DNA from: Phytophthora sp. 'mugwort'
Taxonomy: Eukaryota; Oomycota; Peronosporomycetes; Peronosporales; Peronosporaceae
Reading direction: 5' to 3'
Assembly: GCA_033558025.1 (NCBI GenBank)
Contig: JAUCEF010000007.1
Span: 1,860,001-1,924,000, forward strand
DNA: 64,000 bases
Shown here: in pieces, positions 4,336-56,088 of the stretch
Numbering within the stretch: the first letter of the stretch is position 1
Layout: every line of letters begins with the position of its first letter
The notes under the pieces: model-generated
Seen by the model: the letters and a program-made list of their open reading frames with translations, nothing else
The model's database searches: none
Told to the model about the DNA's origin: nothing
Position numbers and translations under genes: made by a program

Positions 4336-7300
4336 ATGCCACCGCCAGGAGCTGCCGACGTGGACATGACAGGCGCCGCGCCCGTGTCTAACGGCCATAG
4401 CAACGGCCGCGGCCTGAACGGCGTCGCCCCATCCCCAGCCTTCCTGACGCCCGAGGAGAAGCAGAAGATGCTGGAGGAGCGCAGCCGGCGCTGGAACAAG
4501 ATGAACGCCAAGCGCTACGGTGAGAAGCGCAAATTCGGCTTCGTCGAGAGCGTCAAGGACGACATGCCACCTGAGCACGTGCGCAAGATCGTCAAGGACC
4601 ACGGCGACATGAGCAGCAAGAAATTCCGCCACGACAAACGCGTTTATCTGGGAGCACTGAAGTACGTGCCACACGCCATCTTCAAGCTCTTGGAGAACAT
4701 GCCCATGCCCTGGGAGCAGGTCAAGGACGTCAAGGTGCTATATCATGTTACTGGTGCCATCACCTTTGTGAACGAGATTCCGTGGGTCATTGAGCCCGTC
4801 TACATCGCCCAGTGGGGCACCATGTGGGTCATGATGCGTCGCGAGAAGCGCGACCGTCGACACTTTAAGCGCATGCGCTTCCCTCCGTTTGACGACGAGG
4901 AGCCGCCGCTGGATTATGGCGACAATATTCTGGACATTGAGCCCTCGGAAAGCATTACGATGGAGCTGGATGAAGAAGATGATGAAGCAGTGATCGAGTG
5001 GCTCTATGACTCCAAACCCCTAGTGGACTCGAAGTTTGTCAACGGACCGAGCTACCGCAAGTGGCGTCTGCCGGTACCGATTATGGCGAATCTGCATCGT
5101 CTTGCTGGCCAATTGATGAGCGACTTGATCGACCCGAACTACGAGTATCTATTCGATAAAAAGTCGTTCTTTACGGCCAAGGCACTGAATGTGGCGATCC
5201 CTGGAGGGCCCAAGTTTGAGCCGCTGTATCGTGATTTGGACGAGGATGACGAAGACTGGAACGAATTCAATGACATTAACAAGATTATTATCCGTCACCA
5301 GATCCGTACCGAATACAAGGTGGCGTTCCCGTTCCTATACAATAGCCGACCGCGCTCGGTGCACATTCAACCGTATCACACGCCCATGTTGTGCTATATT
5401 AAAGCAGAGGACCCGGACCTCCCGGCGTTCTACTTTGACCCGATTGTGAACCCGATCTCCCACTTCCGAGTAAACCGCTCTGGAAAGGTCAGCAGCCGTC
5501 AAGAAGAGGAAGAAGACGATGAGGACGACGAGTTCCAGCTGCCGATGGGATTCGACCCACTTCTGACGGATGAGCCGCTGTATACCCCGGAAACAGCCAA
5601 CGGCATCGCTCTGTACTGGGCTCCACGGCCGTTTAACCTTCGTACAGGTCGTACGCGTCGTGCTATCGACGTGCCTCTGGTCAACAAGTGGTTTCAGGAA
5701 CACTGTCCACAGGGCCAGCCGGTTAAGGTCCGTGTCAGCTACCAGAAACTGCTGAAATGCTGGGTCCTGAACTCCCTGCACCACCGCGCTCCGAAGGCTC
5801 TGAACAAGAGATATCTGTTCAAGTCACTGAAGTCTACAAAATTCTTCCAGAGCACCGAGTTGGACTGGGTCGAAGCTGGTCTGCAAGTATGTCGTCAGGG
5901 ATACAATATGCTCAACCTGCTGATTCATCGCAAGAACTTGAACTATCTGCACCTGGATTACAACTTTAATTTGAAGCCTATCAAAACGTTGACGACTAAA
6001 GAACGTAAAAAGTCGCGTTTTGGTAACGCTTTCCACTTGACTCGAGAGATTCTGCGTCTGACGAAGCTGATCGTGGATGCTCACGTCCAGTATCGGTTGG
6101 GCAACGTGGATGCGTTCCAGCTTGCTGATGGACTGCAGTATATTTTTGCCCACGTTGGTCAGCTGACGGGTATGTACCGATACAAGTACCGCCTCATGCG
6201 TCAAGTGCGCATGTGCAAGGACTTGAAGCACTTGATCTACTACCGATTCAACACTGGACCGGTGGGCAAGGGACCTGGATGTGGGTTCTGGGCTCCAGGT
6301 TGGCGCGTGTGGCTATTCTTCCTGCGAGGTATTGTACCATTACTTGAGCGATGGCTCGGCAACTTACTGGCGCGTCAGTTTGAGGGTCGCCACTCGAAGG
6401 GTATCGCAAAAACTGTGACGAAGCAGCGTGTGGAAAGTCACTTCGATTTGGAGCTACGTGCAGCCGTGATGCACGATATTCTGGACATGATGCCTGAAGG
6501 TGTTAAGGTCAACAAGTCGCGAACGATCATGTCGCATCTCAGTGAAGCGTGGCGCTGGTATGTATGTTTGTAATTATCTGCAGGTAGTGTGTGTGTGTTT
6601 CTGATGGTTATTTGTTCTTTTTCTGTAACAGTTGGAAGGCAAACATCCCATGGAAGGTGCCAGGCTTACCAGCTCCGATTGAGAACATGATTTTGCGATA
6701 TGTCAAGTCCAAAGCAGACTGGTGGACCAATGTGGCCCACTATAACCGGGAGCGTATCAAGCGTGGTGCTACTGTCGACAAGACTGTCTGTAAGAAGAAC
6801 TTGGGTCGACTGACACGATTGTGGCTGAAGGCAGAACAGGAGCGTCAACATAACTACCTAAAGGATGGTCCTTACGTGTCTGCTGAAGAAGCTGTCGCTG
6901 TGTACACGACTACAGTGCACTGGCTGGAAAGCCGGAAATTTGCTCCCATCCCGTTCCCGCCGTTGTCGTACAAGCATGATACCAAGCTTCTCATTCTAGC
7001 TTTGGAAAGGCTAAAGGAAGGCTATTCTGTCAATAACCGGTTGAACCAGACGCAGCGTGAAGAGCTGGGTCTGATTGAACAAGCTTACGACAACCCTCAT
7101 GAGGCACTGTCGCGTATCAAGCGGCACTTGCTTACCCAGCGCGCTTTCAAGGAAGTCCACATCGAGTTCATGGATCTGTACAGCCACTTGATCCCAGTGT
7201 ACGACATTGAACCGTTGGAGAAGATCACGGACGCGTATCTTGACCAGTATTTATGGTATGAAGCAGACAAGCGTCACTTGTTCCCCAGTTGGATTAAGCC

Positions 7301-10300
7301 AAGCGACTCTGAACCGCCTCCGCTTCTTGTTTACAAGTGGTGCCAAGGTGTTAACAACCTGCACAACGTATGGGATACGTCCGAGGAGGAGTGCGTGGTG
7401 ATGCTCGAATCCAAACTGGAGAAGGTTTACGAGAAGATCGACTTGACGCTGCTGAACAGGCTTCTGCGATTGATTCTGGACCACAACATCGCTGACTACA
7501 TGACAGCAAAGAACAATATTGTTATAGCGTACAAGGACATGATGCACACGAACTCGTACGGCCTCATTCGCGGATTGCAGTTCGGTTCTTTTATCTTCCA
7601 GTACTACGGCCTGATTTTGGATCTGTTGCTGTTGGGTCTTACTCGTGCGACTGAGATTGCTGGTCCACCGGAGCTCCCGAACGAATATTTGTCGTTCAAA
7701 GACACTGCGACGGAGACTCGGCACCCGATTCGCCTGTACACGCGCTACATTGACAAAATTTACGTGCTGTTCCGGTTCGATGCTGACGATTCTCGCGATC
7801 TAATCCAGCGCTATTTGACCGAACACCCGGACCCGAACAATGAGAACGTCGTCGGTTACAACAACAAGAAGTGCTGGCCTCGTGATGCTCGCATGAGGCT
7901 GATGAAACACGACGTGAACCTCGGAAGAGCTACGTTCTGGGATATGAAGAATCGCTTGCCGCGATCAATGACAACGTTCGACTGGGATAATAGCTTTGTG
8001 TCGGTGTACTCAAAGGATAACCCGAACTTGCTGTTCAGCATGTGTGGGTTTGAAGCGCGTATTTTGCCGAAGATTCGTGCAGTCAACGCCGAGTTCACTC
8101 ACAAAGATGGCGTGTGGATTCTGCAAAATGAAACAACAAAGGAGCGTACAGCACAGGCTTATCTCCGCGTCGATGAAGAGTCGATGCACTCATTCGAGAA
8201 CCGAATTCGTCAGGTTTTGATGTCTTCTGGTAGTACGACATTCACGAAAGTTGCGAACAAGTGGAACTCAGCACTGATCGGTCTAATGACTTATTACCGC
8301 GAATCTGTCGTTCAGACGCAGGAGCTACTAGACCTCCTTGTGAAGTGCGAGAACAAGATTCAAACTCGTATTAAAATCGGGTTGAACTCGAAGATGCCGT
8401 CACGATTCCCGCCTGTGGTGTTTTATACGCCGAAGGAGCTGGGTGGTCTAGGTATGCTTTCAATGGGCCACGTGTTGATACCGCAGTCGGATCTTCGCTA
8501 CTCAAAGCAAACCGACGGTGGTGGCGTGACCCATTTCCGTTCGGGTATGTCCCATGAGGAGGACCAACTGATCCCGAACTTGTTCCGGTACTTGCAGCCG
8601 TGGGAGTCGGAGTTTATTGACTCACAGCGTGTGTGGGCTGAATATGCCTTAAAGCGACAGGAAGCTAACGCTCAGAACCGCCGCTTAACTCTGGAGGATC
8701 TGGAAGACTCCTGGGATCGTGGTATTCCACGTATCAACACGCTTTTCCAGAAGGACCGTCATACGTTGGCGTACGATAAGGGCTGGCGTGTTCGTACGGG
8801 CTTCAAGTGCTACCAGGTGCCGCGTCATAACCCGTTCTGGTGGACTCACCAACGGCACGACGGCAAACTGTGGAACCTGAACAACTACCGAACGGATATG
8901 ATTCAGGCACTAGGTGGTGTGGAAGGTATTCTTGAGCATACACTTTTCAAGGGAACTTACTTCCCTACATGGGAAGGTTTGTTTTGGGAGAAAGCTTCTG
9001 GTTTCGAAGAGAGTATGAAGTACAAGAAGCTGACGAACGCTCAGCGATCAGGTCTGAACCAGATTCCCAACCGACGATTCACGCTCTGGTGGTCTCCTAC
9101 GATCAACCGCGCCAATGTATACGTTGGATTCCAGGTGCAATTGGATTTAACGGGTATTTTCATGCACGGTAAAATCCCGACGCTCAAGATCTCTCTGATC
9201 CAGATTTTCCGCGCTCATTTGTGGCAGAAGATTCATGAATCGCTGGTGATGGATCTGGTGCAAGTGTTCGATCAGGAGCTGGATGCGCTGGAGATTGAAA
9301 ACGTGCAGAAGGAAACAATTCACCCGCGTAAGTCGTACAAGATGAACTCGTCGTGCGCAGATGTTCTTCTTTTTGCTGCCTACAAGTGGCAGATGGGACG
9401 ACCAACGTTGCTACACGATACGAAGGACAGCTACGATGGTTCAACGAGCACAAAGTACTGGATTGATGTGCAGCTTCGTTGGGGCGACTTTGACTCGCAC
9501 GATATTGAGCGGTATGCACGTGCCAAGTTTTTGGATTACACAACGGACAATATGACGATTTATCCGTCGCCGACTGGCGTGCTGCTTGCAGTGGATCTCG
9601 CGTACAACTTGTACAGTGGCTATGGCAACTGGTTCCCGGGATGTAAGCCGCTCATGCAGCAGGCAATGGCCAAGATCATGAAGGCAAATCCTGCTTTGTA
9701 TGTGCTGCGTGAGCGTATTCGTAAAGGTTTGCAGCTCTACTCTTCTGAGCCGACAGAGCCGTATCTATCGAGTCAAAACTATGGTGAACTGTTCTCAAAC
9801 CAAATTATTTGGTTTGTGGATGATACGAATGTGTACCGAGTGACGATTCACAAGACCTTTGAAGGAAACCTGACGACGAAGCCTATCAATGGTGCTATCT
9901 TCATCTTCAACCCGCGCACTGGTCAATTGTTCCTTAAGATTATTCACACGTCAGTATGGGCTGGTCAGAAACGTTTGGGCCAACTGGCGAAGTGGAAGAC
10001 GGCCGAAGAAGTAGCAGCCCTCATTCGGTCGCTGCCTGTTGAAGAGCAGCCGAAGCAAATCATTGTGACGCGAAAGGGGATGCTGGACCCGCTGGAAGTG
10101 CATCTGTTGGACTTCCCAAATATTGTCATCAAGGGCAGTGAGCTCCAGTTACCATTCCAGGCCTGCTTGAAGGTCGAGAAGTTTGGTGATTTGATCTTGA
10201 AGGCAACCGAGCCGCAGATGGTTCTTTTCAACATCTACGACGACTGGCTGAACACTATCACATCGTACACGGCATTTTCTCGTCTGATCCTGATTCTACG

Positions 10301-52801: not shown

Positions 52802-52809
52802 ATTGCCAC
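52802..52809. repeat. Left target-site duplication of hAT element 2 (ATTGCCAC)
   Basis: Identical to bases 56081-56088. Confidence 0.93.
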
Positions 52810-52964
52810 TAGTGTTGTTAATTACCGTGGGATTAACTCCTAATAACTACCAAGCGGTAATCCCGTTAAAATATTTTTGTTGTCTACATGTTCACATTCG
52901 GACATTTATACTCGGACCTGAGGCTCCAGCGCAAGGCTATATATTTATGACTTCGCACAGTAGC

Positions 52965-53690
52965 CGTAGCTGCAAGCCGTACGTGCGCGGCTGCAGAGAA
53001 CCGTCCGTCGACTTGAGAAAAGAAAGACGATGCGCGCACACACGTCCAGCGGCGCGGAGACGGCGCTGAAGGAAGGCGACTACATCAGCGCCAACGGCAC
53101 GACCGGCGAGGCGATTAAGGGCGAGCAGAAGTTGCAGAAAGCTGCGATGACCAGCGAATTGGTGCAGTTCATGAAGTGCAGGAACGCGCAACGCCGCAAG
53201 GAGGTGTTCACGAAGGCCGACACTCCCGAGAATCCCCGCGAAGCCATTGCGCACGGTGCGCAGGGCATCGGTCTGACATGACTAAGCACTTGTTCTTCAG
53301 CTTCGCGCAGTGCGTCGTATGATCGATGCGGTGGAGCTGGACTCCCCAGCGCAGCAGGAGGCGCTGGACGTGCTGTGCACGTTTAAGCAGGGCAACTTCG
53401 AGGGACCTTTCGCGCCACGGACGGCTGCTCGAAACCATCCGTGCCGGGCCCGCCGCACGAGGGCAGTGAGCTGGATGAGCTGTAGCGCAGGCAATGTAGG
53501 TCAGCAATGCGGAGGTGCTACTGCGCGCGGAGGAGGCGAACTGAGTGATAGGTCTGAATGGCCGTCGTCTGGGCATCGTATACCCGGCCATCACGGGGAT
53601 GCAGGCGAAGGCCGTTGCGGAAGTGGCCATGAAGGTGGCAAGGAGGGCATCTCGGTGCACCCGTACATCGTGATCCAGCTGGTGAGTTGT
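52965..53690 (+). pseudogene. Pyruvate phosphate dikinase fragment captured in hAT 2
   Basis: In three frames but in the correct order: YVRGCREPSVDL, then GDYISANGTTGEAIKG (about 53078), the conserved loop that ends the swivelling phosphohistidine domain, then KADTPENPREAIAHGAQGIG (about 53215-53275), and later QGNFEGPF (about 53390). After a further frame change comes a PAITGMQAKAV-like helix, and the piece ends with KEGISVHPYIVIQLV near 53640-53683. These are the junction and first part of the PEP-binding TIM barrel of PPDK, which interconverts pyruvate and PEP. About a quarter of a normal 900-residue enzyme is present, with no catalytic cysteine region. It sits inside the transposon and has no flanking gene, so capture is inferred. 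Confidence 0.75.
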
Positions 53691-53959
53691 TCGAGGAATT
53701 GGAAGATCCGTATGCGTGCATCTTATCTGACAATAGGGGCGCGACGTCGGCTGCGCGGGTCTCTTATCTGCGGGCACGTGCGACTTCGTTGACCGCAAAT
53801 TCTGGTTGTCAAGGGAGTGGCCGGCTGGCGTCGATGCAAACAGAGATCGCCGCGCAGCTGAATTATCCTGGTGAACCCGCACACGGAAGTCGTTATTGCG
53901 ATGGTGACTGACAGCTCTCTGCGTTTCTTCATCACTGAAATAGCCGTCTGTATTGCTGT

Positions 53960-55854
53960 CGCTTTCGTTGGGGTTTGCATCGCCGTCGTCCTTGTAGTGC
54001 ATTTGACTGCTCGATGCCTTTTCACCTACATTGGTGTACAAGAAGGCGAGTTTCTCTACACGAGCAGGCTTCAGTCGATTCCGACGTTTTGTTGTGAATG
54101 AAAGAGTGAGCATTCCATGAACGCTCACTTCCTGCCGAAGACGTCGGGATACTCAGCACACGCGTCGCGAAGTCCCTGAGAACAGCAAAATCGGTACTCT
54201 TAAGCCTCCACCAATCGAGCGGTGTGTAGCTCGATGTCTGCTCCCATTTCTCCTGTGATCATCCATCCTTCGCGCGGATGAACTTCATGACAGCATCACG
54301 AAAAGTGCTTGCTGTTACTCCCGGCGATAGGCCTACGCGCACAGCCGCTCAACACATGCTGTGTCTGCGTTGTTCAAGTCATCACCATCAATGTCGTCAG
54401 GAGACTTGTCCAGCAAGAAAGCCGCAAGCACAGACTCCCGCTTGGTTGACTCCCACCGCTTCAAGAATTGCTTTGATGCTCGAGAAGACATTTTCCTCGA
54501 TGTCGTCATTCTGCGCACGGAAGGCTCGATGGTAGCCCTCGAAAATAATGATAGACCATCGAAAGGCAGCATCCATCTTTGTCAAGAGCCCCCAGCGCTT
54601 TAACAACAGGTTGAACTAAACGTAAAACAGCCCGTGCCTTCATCCAAAAGCTGCTATCGGCGAGGATTGCCTTTACCCGATTGAGTTTCGCCTCAGCAAC
54701 CTTATAGCGATCCAGTAAGACTTCGTTCGCAAAAACTTCTCGCAGCACTTCCTCATTTCGGACAAGATGGAAATGCAGTTGGTACTAGAGTACCATCTCA
54801 TCGAGACTGGAATAACCAAAGCGCGGCGTCGTTGGCGCGATCCCATTTGTCGTCGTTGCACCTCCAGGAATTGATATAGCAGCGCAGGCCTCTTACGGAC
54901 GAACTTACAGTGACACTGACAGCACTCTTGAGGACATCACCGAGGTACTTAACTCCAAACATGTCCTTCAGCAAATTTGAGGGTGTGTGCAGCGCATCCA
55001 TTGCAGGTTAGGGCCGCTATTAGCAGCTCCCATGACTTGCATAAATATTCGAAGCGTTATCGTGACCACAGCACAAACAGATCCCTTGCCAACGACAGTC
55101 TCAACCTCACCAATTACTTTGGTCAGCGCAACAGCCATGTGTTTGTCGTCTCGTGTTCGAATCGAGGACCAAAATATTGGCCGAATAAATGGTGACACCA
55201 CCATGAAGCTCACAGTACTCTTGCTGTTAGGATCCGACCAACCATCACACACCACCGCCCCAATGGTTTCGCCCTCTAACACCACCTTGACATTCTCCCA
55301 CTCCTCCGTGTACGCTTCGTCGAGCAAGCACTGGATAGGTCCTGGCGGGTGGGGAGGGTCATGCCTGGTCGATATCTGGTAAGGAAAAAGCGCATCGCAG
55401 GATTTTCGATGACACGAAATGGAATTCCAGAAGAATCGAATGCTGCATCTATAGCCTGATGGAACACTTTCTTGGCCATTTTGCTTACAGGCTCATGAAC
55501 ACTGGACCGGCGCGATGAGTCCCCCACCCGGGCCCGTTTAGGTGAAGCTACATCGCCTACTACGTCGCGAATTCGCTTGCCGAGTAGCGGCGCGAACTTA
55601 GCGCGGATTCCGTATGGAACCGTTGGACACTGACAGACAATGTGAGGAACCGTGCTCTTCTTGGGTTTCGCGTGGCGAAGCTCCTTGGAGCAGTGATTGC
55701 AGACTACACCGGGGTTATGCTTGCCTGGGTAGGCCCACATCGGAACATTGGGTCGCGAACTTACTCCACACAGGATGCAAAGGAGGACCGAGGTTGCTTT
55801 CAGTTGCTCGATCGTCGCCAAAGCGCGGTTTTCTTCGTCAGATTCTTCCGCCAT
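53960..55854 (-). pseudogene. hAT transposase relic with DUF659-type core (element 2)
   Basis: Read on the minus strand. The first piece (55854-55276) has a Cys-rich finger (CILCG, then VCNHCSKELRHAK) and a basic linker with PKRARVG. The next (about 55327-54968) contains VVCDGWSDPNSKSTVSFMVV, the DUF659 signature of hAT-related transposases. Middle pieces (55001-54506) include the KDMFGVKYLGDVLK and YKVAEAKLNRVKAIL helices. A late piece (about 54128-54040) has TKRRNRLKPARVEKLAFLYTN, typical of the extreme C-terminus of these enzymes. Several stops and frame changes separate them. No catalytic residues could be confirmed. The part of the minus-strand ORF below about 53960 overlaps the dikinase fragment and is probably a shadow. 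Confidence 0.75.
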
Positions 55855-56080
55855 GTTGCTGGGAAGGGTGTCGGCTTCTGGTTGATTCGTGTTGTGTCAG
55901 CTAGTTAGAAGAGAGGTGTGCGAAGATTGTGCTGCGCAACTTCAATTTGAAGCGTTGGCGTAAGCAAAAAATTTCTGCCACACTAGAGTTACACAAAACG
56001 GTAATACCGCTACTAACTTGGTAAGAGGAGCTACTACCGGTATTTAGGTAATACCTTGCTAAGGTTTTTCCCCAACACTA

Positions 56081-56088
56081 ATTGCCAC
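56081..56088. repeat. Right target-site duplication of hAT element 2 (ATTGCCAC)
   Basis: Identical to bases 52802-52809. Confidence 0.93.

Follow-up and report, generated by a model that had tools for sequence, protein, structure and literature searches.

A hAT transposon family in Phytophthora sp. 'mugwort' carries a frame-broken fragment of the pyruvate phosphate dikinase gene

Layout of the hAT element and its PPDK fragment

The window analyzed here, a 64,000-bp stretch of the Phytophthora sp. 'mugwort' genome (C7:1860001-1924000), contains a hAT element of 3,271 bp at window positions 52810-56080. As a sequence-only reading of the same DNA had proposed, the element is bounded by exact 8-bp target-site duplications (TSDs; ATTGCCAC, 52802-52809 and 56081-56088) and by exact 8-bp terminal inverted repeats (TIRs), with TAGTGTTG at 52810-52817 and its exact complement CAACACTA at 56073-56080. 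The start of TAGTGTTG, TAG..G, is what we take to be the short-TIR motif of the hAT superfamily. Exact 8+8 TSD/TIR pairs spaced 0.5-8 kb apart occur three times in the window, whereas first-order Markov sequences (n = 40) average 0.15 such pairs each, and the structure taken alone, from the window only, is suggestive of a hAT element and not decisive. GGTAAT/ATTACC subterminal motifs are located at element positions 12 and 47 on the left and 3191 and 3238 on the right, the latter two within the right end at 56000-56072. All four lie within ~80 bp of an end, as seen in a scan that had no chance control; among the other two copies scanned, L013 has one of its seven motifs internally and L010 has none at its right end.

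The left end of the element (52818-52946, ~130 bp) is not pyruvate phosphate dikinase (PPDK) sequence, as judged by alignment. It is followed on the plus strand by a frame-broken PPDK fragment (52947-53703) that corresponds to nt ~1430-2240 of the host PPDK open reading frame (1456-2240 by BLAST, with the upstream start read from the alignment by eye). The fragment had been placed at 52965-53690; it is indeed present there, but its homology starts near 52947 and runs past 53690 to an internal-deletion junction at 53701-53703. The identity of this fragment is evident from the plus-strand ORF at 52970-53278, which matches solved PPDK structures (5jvj residues 488-560, E 3.5e-13), and from the 72% DNA identity of 52974-53703 to the host PPDK ORF. 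A window ORF has only a sub-threshold match to the Pfam domain PEP-utilizers_C (E 0.097), whereas in a whole-genome scan all six other hAT loci exceed the 22.8-bit cut-off with 27-88 bits, mostly in sequence with stops or in short open pieces. The GC content is 0.597 over 53001-54000 as compared to 0.465 and 0.504 in the neighboring kilobases.

On the opposite strand, as had also been claimed, there are frame-broken remains of a hAT transposase lacking its deleted 3' end (53704-55854, from ORFs and Pfam matches), with the N-terminal ORF having its first ATG near 55854. The minus-strand Pfam order is a weak zf-BED match (E 0.55, 55276-55896), DUF659 (E 2.1e-10, 54968-55492) and Dimer_Tnp_hAT (PF05699; E 2.5e-10, 54022-54258), with the last reaching E 8.6e-16 in copy L013. 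The transposase tail is homologous to a P. citrophthora hAT protein (P0183, 46% identity over 355 alignment columns), and therefore the transposase itself is ordinary. An intact transposase was not found in any of six copies, where the longest open piece is 371 aa. The transposase frames of the six copies vary about equally at all three codon positions (p 0.10-0.78 in five tests), and the sampled copies therefore look like relics.

Copies of the element and decay of the captured frame

A search of the window's own genome (86.3 Mb) with the element as DNA query gave 32 matches, some of which are host PPDK genes. The hAT loci number seven, window included, and the PPDK piece is present at every one of them. 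Those outside the window are five near-full copies of 3.9-4.2 kb (on C5, C13, C14, C8 and at C7:6.2 Mb) plus a degenerate copy on C10 that is rearranged; all six contain both transposase and PPDK sequence. The near-full copies have common ends save for one damaged left end (scrambled in the C7:6.2 Mb copy), one damaged right end (short by 5 bp in the C8 copy) and one right end with a substitution. Perfect 8-bp TSDs of differing sequence flank four of the six near-full copies, namely the window copy and those at C5 (GTTGTAAA), C8 (GTACTACT) and C7:6.2 Mb (AGTGACCG), the last two being read by eye past the damaged ends, and a direct TSD is absent at C13 and C14:1.50 Mb. The reality of the hAT element is decided by these TSDs together with the occurrence of the same ends in other flanks in the five other near-full copies. 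Neither an absence of PPDK similarity nor copies with different ends, the two outcomes named beforehand as speaking against capture, was encountered.

The flanks differ among the copies, with one dispersed repeat common to the neighborhoods of the C5 and C14 copies. A scan for the 22-bp left end within three mismatches hit seven places (two at C5, plus the window, C13, C14, C8 and C10) relative to three for a reversed-pattern control, and taken alone is weak evidence for copies. Divergence among six copies (K2P) is 0.054-0.084. A close PPDK-free relative of the window element was not found in the genome, where distant transposase matches on C1, C6, C16 and C18 have 27-46% identity.

Several copies have local peculiarities. 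The C5 copy has two left ends 72 bp apart, each preceded by GTTGTAAA (L009, reverse-turned 1995 and 2067), which appears to be a tandem duplication of the left end plus TSD. A related repeat near this copy has the target site without an element (L009, reverse-turned 7180-7260), and an inverted copy of the target site adjoins the element in the left flank of the C14 copy (L011, 1990-2050). The C10 copy has 264-bp direct repeats, 95% alike and 4.9 kb apart (L014:3904-4166 and 8835-9098), that look like the LTRs of an insertion.

Relative to the five fuller copies, the window copy is ~790 bp shorter inside. All five have an extra 787-811 bp at element position ~892/893 of the window copy, and none has this deletion, which takes away the end of the PPDK piece and the transposase 3' end. 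At the junction there is a 3-base overlap, GGA (53701-53703, read from the alignment), as would be expected from interrupted gap repair. In the fuller copies the PPDK piece reaches to near the PPDK C-terminus. It matches nt 1443-2650 of the host ORF at 72-76% DNA identity (BLAST), which is the divergence from the genome's own PPDK that the sequence-only reading had asked for, and it represents roughly codons 470-890. The alignment places the start of homology near the GGMTSHAAV motif and shows bad degradation beyond nt ~2650. The piece is preceded by ~130-200 bp of the element's left end and followed by the transposase tail, the two being on opposite strands and tail to tail.

The captured frame was dead before the copies spread, and unconstrained both before and during that spread, because the five fuller copies have frame-breaking deletions in common and because codon-position variation among them is flat. 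Specifically, nine deletions are common to all five (13, 1, 1, 20, 9, 1, 9, 10 and 14 nt), most of them frame-breaking. Variation among these copies at codon positions 1/2/3 is.159/.157/.172 (chi-square p 0.86), as against.137/.125/.190 for the fixed differences from the host; both counts use columns free of gaps in all five copies and exclude the window copy. The position-3 excess in the fixed differences would be expected from the host gene's own branch. Over the stretch that it covers, the C10 copy also has the two 9-nt deletions and the 10-nt and 14-nt deletions and lacks the 1-nt deletion (by eye). The capture therefore predates the split of the C10 copy, which is earlier than that of the other copies. 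Thus the earlier suggestion that the family has been mobilizing an enzyme domain holds for the DNA but not for a working enzyme.

The donor gene and PPDK fragments elsewhere in the genome

The donor type is the intronless host PPDK gene, which is present in seven copies that are 99-100% identical and in mixed orientation within a 38-kb array (C5:2340832-2379055; L015-L019). Recent amplification, gene conversion or assembly duplication could each account for seven near-identical genes. The host gene shares 96% identity, across 98% of its length, with a cluster named for Phytophthora cinnamomi, a species in which four PPDK genes were reportedly described in 2001. Oomycetes have PPDK alongside pyruvate kinase, according to the excerpted text of one source (PMC5715807).

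When the whole host PPDK ORF was used as query it gave 47 matches, which comprise the seven genes and 40 fragments. These fragments represent at least 32 loci outside of the array (merged within 7 kb), a lower bound given that 40 of 48 candidates were scored. In a small control set of three genes, PRP8 (2745 bp) and aconitase (2292 bp) matched only themselves and PDI (1089 bp) matched itself and three short stretches of 136, 50 and 47 bp. Seven of the 32 loci are the window hAT family, 15 adjoin the non-PPDK sequence of a second, MULE-like element, two belong to a third repeat and eight are unassigned, the last group including C14:1244577, which resembles the MULE-like element in PPDK sequence alone.

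The second element has 56-bp TIRs (96% in the type copy L033, C7:4248307-4251799, L033:3308-6800), 9-bp TSDs and a SWIM finger, and hence is MULE-like. The five copies inspected are L031, L032, L033, L043 and L044, with only one end found for L031 and L043; the three with both ends (L032, L033 and L044) all have 9-bp TSDs, read by eye as AAAAAATAA, TTGTTTTAT and TTAAATATA. The SWIM finger (PF04434) was detected in L043 (E 5.1e-7) and is absent from the other open pieces scanned, among which there was also no Pfam match to a MULE transposase catalytic domain. Its cargo is the N-half of PPDK (ORF nt ~223-1329), on the strand opposite the SWIM-bearing frame. The hAT and MULE-like pieces do not overlap, being ~100 nt apart on the ORF, and in both elements PPDK lies antiparallel to the transposase, on its 3' side. 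The only deletions shared by the three fuller MULE-like copies are 3 and 21 nt, both in frame; fixed differences at the three codon positions are.085/.087/.149 and variation is flat (.122/.118/.123). Short MULE-like forms also occur, such as C17:4104183-4104786, that match the element ends and a bit of PPDK only.

The third repeat (C7:6.39 Mb and C14:2.55 Mb; L021:3226-4753 and L030:4175-7491) contains PPDK codons ~520-769, and no TIR or TSD was recognized in it. It is 78-81% (L021) and 71-79% (L030) identical to host PPDK versus 64-73% identical to the hAT piece, save for two short stretches, of 28 nt (93%) and 33 nt (85%). Since its similarity to the host gene exceeds that to the hAT piece, we take it as a separate capture, and a single capture behind both is rejected. 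The first ~158 bp of the third repeat recur at 69-74% at several other places. One of the eight unassigned loci belongs to a 224-bp PPDK stretch at C14:1679312-1679534 (L020:3810-4033), which agrees with copy L011 in its PPDK part at 100% identity. The surroundings of this stretch do not match the hAT element any further, and it may be filler DNA or a product of conversion.

Origin of the captured piece and comparison with known elements

The host gene capture that the sequence-only reading proposed is borne out by the common ends, the 8-bp TSDs at separate sites, the presence of PPDK at every hAT locus, and the shared breakpoints and frame-breaking deletions. Very probably, the 3' part of PPDK (~codons 470-890) entered a transposase-carrying hAT lineage in antiparallel orientation, at a place flanked by the element's left end and the transposase 3' end. 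It may have been acquired by repair as the element excised or replicated, through either gap repair or template switching at the PPDK array. Thereafter, with the element still transposing by cut and paste, the PPDK sequence would have decayed free of coding constraint. The window copy is an internally deleted family member with a broken transposase. The hAT-PPDK breakpoints themselves reveal no mechanism.

Given that PPDK fragments are widely scattered in this genome, a PPDK pseudogene could have been there first, with a hAT element landing in or next to it and merely seeming to carry it. This is extremely improbable, as PPDK lies within the TSDs, and copies whose flanks differ have the same piece between the same ends, down to its inner deletions; on such shared internal breakpoints at separate sites we reject it. 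It is also very improbable that the piece serves as functional or selected coding cargo, or did so while the copies were spreading. Copy L012 does have a 220-aa PPDK frame that is open up to its stop, and the shared deletions of the MULE-borne N-half are in frame, but the PPDK N-terminal domains are missing from the hAT cargo and the host motif LGICGEHGG, the Cys of which is presumably catalytic, is altered to LGIFLEYAG in L012 (peptides compared by eye). We reject selected coding cargo on the frame-breaking deletions in all five fuller copies and the flat codon-position variation.

A role of the piece as RNA, with transcripts that yield small RNAs acting on PPDK or on the element, would seem quite unlikely. 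Its tail-to-tail arrangement means that read-through from the transposase would give PPDK antisense, and many PPDK fragments exist in the genome, but a divergence of ~25% from the PPDK genes weakens targeting, and variation lacks codon-position constraint, though this is little informative on RNA. Capture through an mRNA or retrocopy rather than by copying of genomic DNA has a precedent in the excerpted account of fungal histone H3 (PMC6710886). We regard this route as unlikely, as clear homology stops before the host stop codon and the alignment shows no poly(A) tract following it; the donor genes being intronless, intron loss is uninformative on it. A broader reading of the PPDK captures is conceivable though rather doubtful. 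The PPDK array would be a recurrent source from which at least three unrelated families (the hAT with the C-half, the MULE-like element with the N-half and the third repeat with codons ~520-769) captured pieces independently. The inverted near-identical array may be a fragile site that feeds transposons, and small-RNA control of PPDK or the elements may draw on the antisense pieces.

Capture of a housekeeping gene by a hAT is not new in principle, as it is already known for histone H3 in fungi (PMC6710886, PMC3538342; comparisons here follow excerpts of the papers cited). The hAT of Pseudocercospora fijiensis that carries histone H3 has an 8-bp TSD and DUF659 (Dhillon 2019, PMC6710886), and there too a piece of a housekeeping gene was captured and spread and its copies were inactivated. 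It differs in having hundreds of copies that are RIP-inactivated and a cargo thought to derive from a transcript or retrocopy, whereas our case involves an oomycete, PPDK, few copies and an intronless donor. The H3L transduplicating hAT of Pyrenophora tritici-repentis (PMC3538342) is likewise transposase-carrying, with the captured gene between its TIRs and an internally deleted form; in contrast its copies are almost identical and several have full-length cargo frames. Similarity in principle to Pack-MULEs had been suggested, and it holds for the gene piece between TIRs, a feature of the cut-and-paste plant Pack-TYPE and animal Pack-TIR elements (PMC8903248, PMC8277862). It does not extend further, as Pack-TYPE elements are non-autonomous and without a transposase gene, whereas the window family carries its own, with remains in its copies. 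A gene fragment lying inside the ends and multiplied by transposition makes the family a case of transduplication.

Capture of one enzyme gene by several superfamilies, including hAT, is described for the fungal TET/JBP dioxygenase (PMC12730594), but that cargo encodes a dioxygenase thought to help the transposon, whereas here there are dead fragments of different halves. Regarding the MULE-like element, 9-bp TSDs, TIRs of tens of bp and SWIM fingers occur among described Phytophthora MULEs (PMC6446971), and the word 'dikinase' is absent from the main text of that paper. Among the literature titles and abstract beginnings searched, no published PPDK capture or gene capture by an oomycete hAT was found. 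The window family offers a clean oomycete case in which the ends and breakpoints can be read, as can the donor array and the succession from capture through frame death to spread. What is unusual is that different pieces of one metabolic gene were taken up repeatedly by unrelated elements, and the complementary half in a MULE-like element of the same genome raises the question of why. For annotation, the at least 32 loci of PPDK debris besides seven real genes are a warning.

Regarding relatives in other Phytophthora species, a tree of 17 rows (one 220-aa element peptide and 16 PPDK sequences) places the peptide with P. fragariae P0170 (support 84) near Phytophthora. The supports around this placement are 24-32 and both the element and P0170 branches are long, and therefore the tree dates nothing. 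Two other matches of the element peptide, P0121 (P. nicotianae) and P0123 (P. cinnamomi), were set aside as they look like ordinary PPDK pieces. P0170 is possibly the same captured lineage in another species. This 248-aa predicted protein is a degenerate PPDK that overall resembles the element (51% of 139 columns) no more than the host (50% of 262 columns), and both it and the element (L012) have GKLFDYKV where the host has GKAFDYKV.
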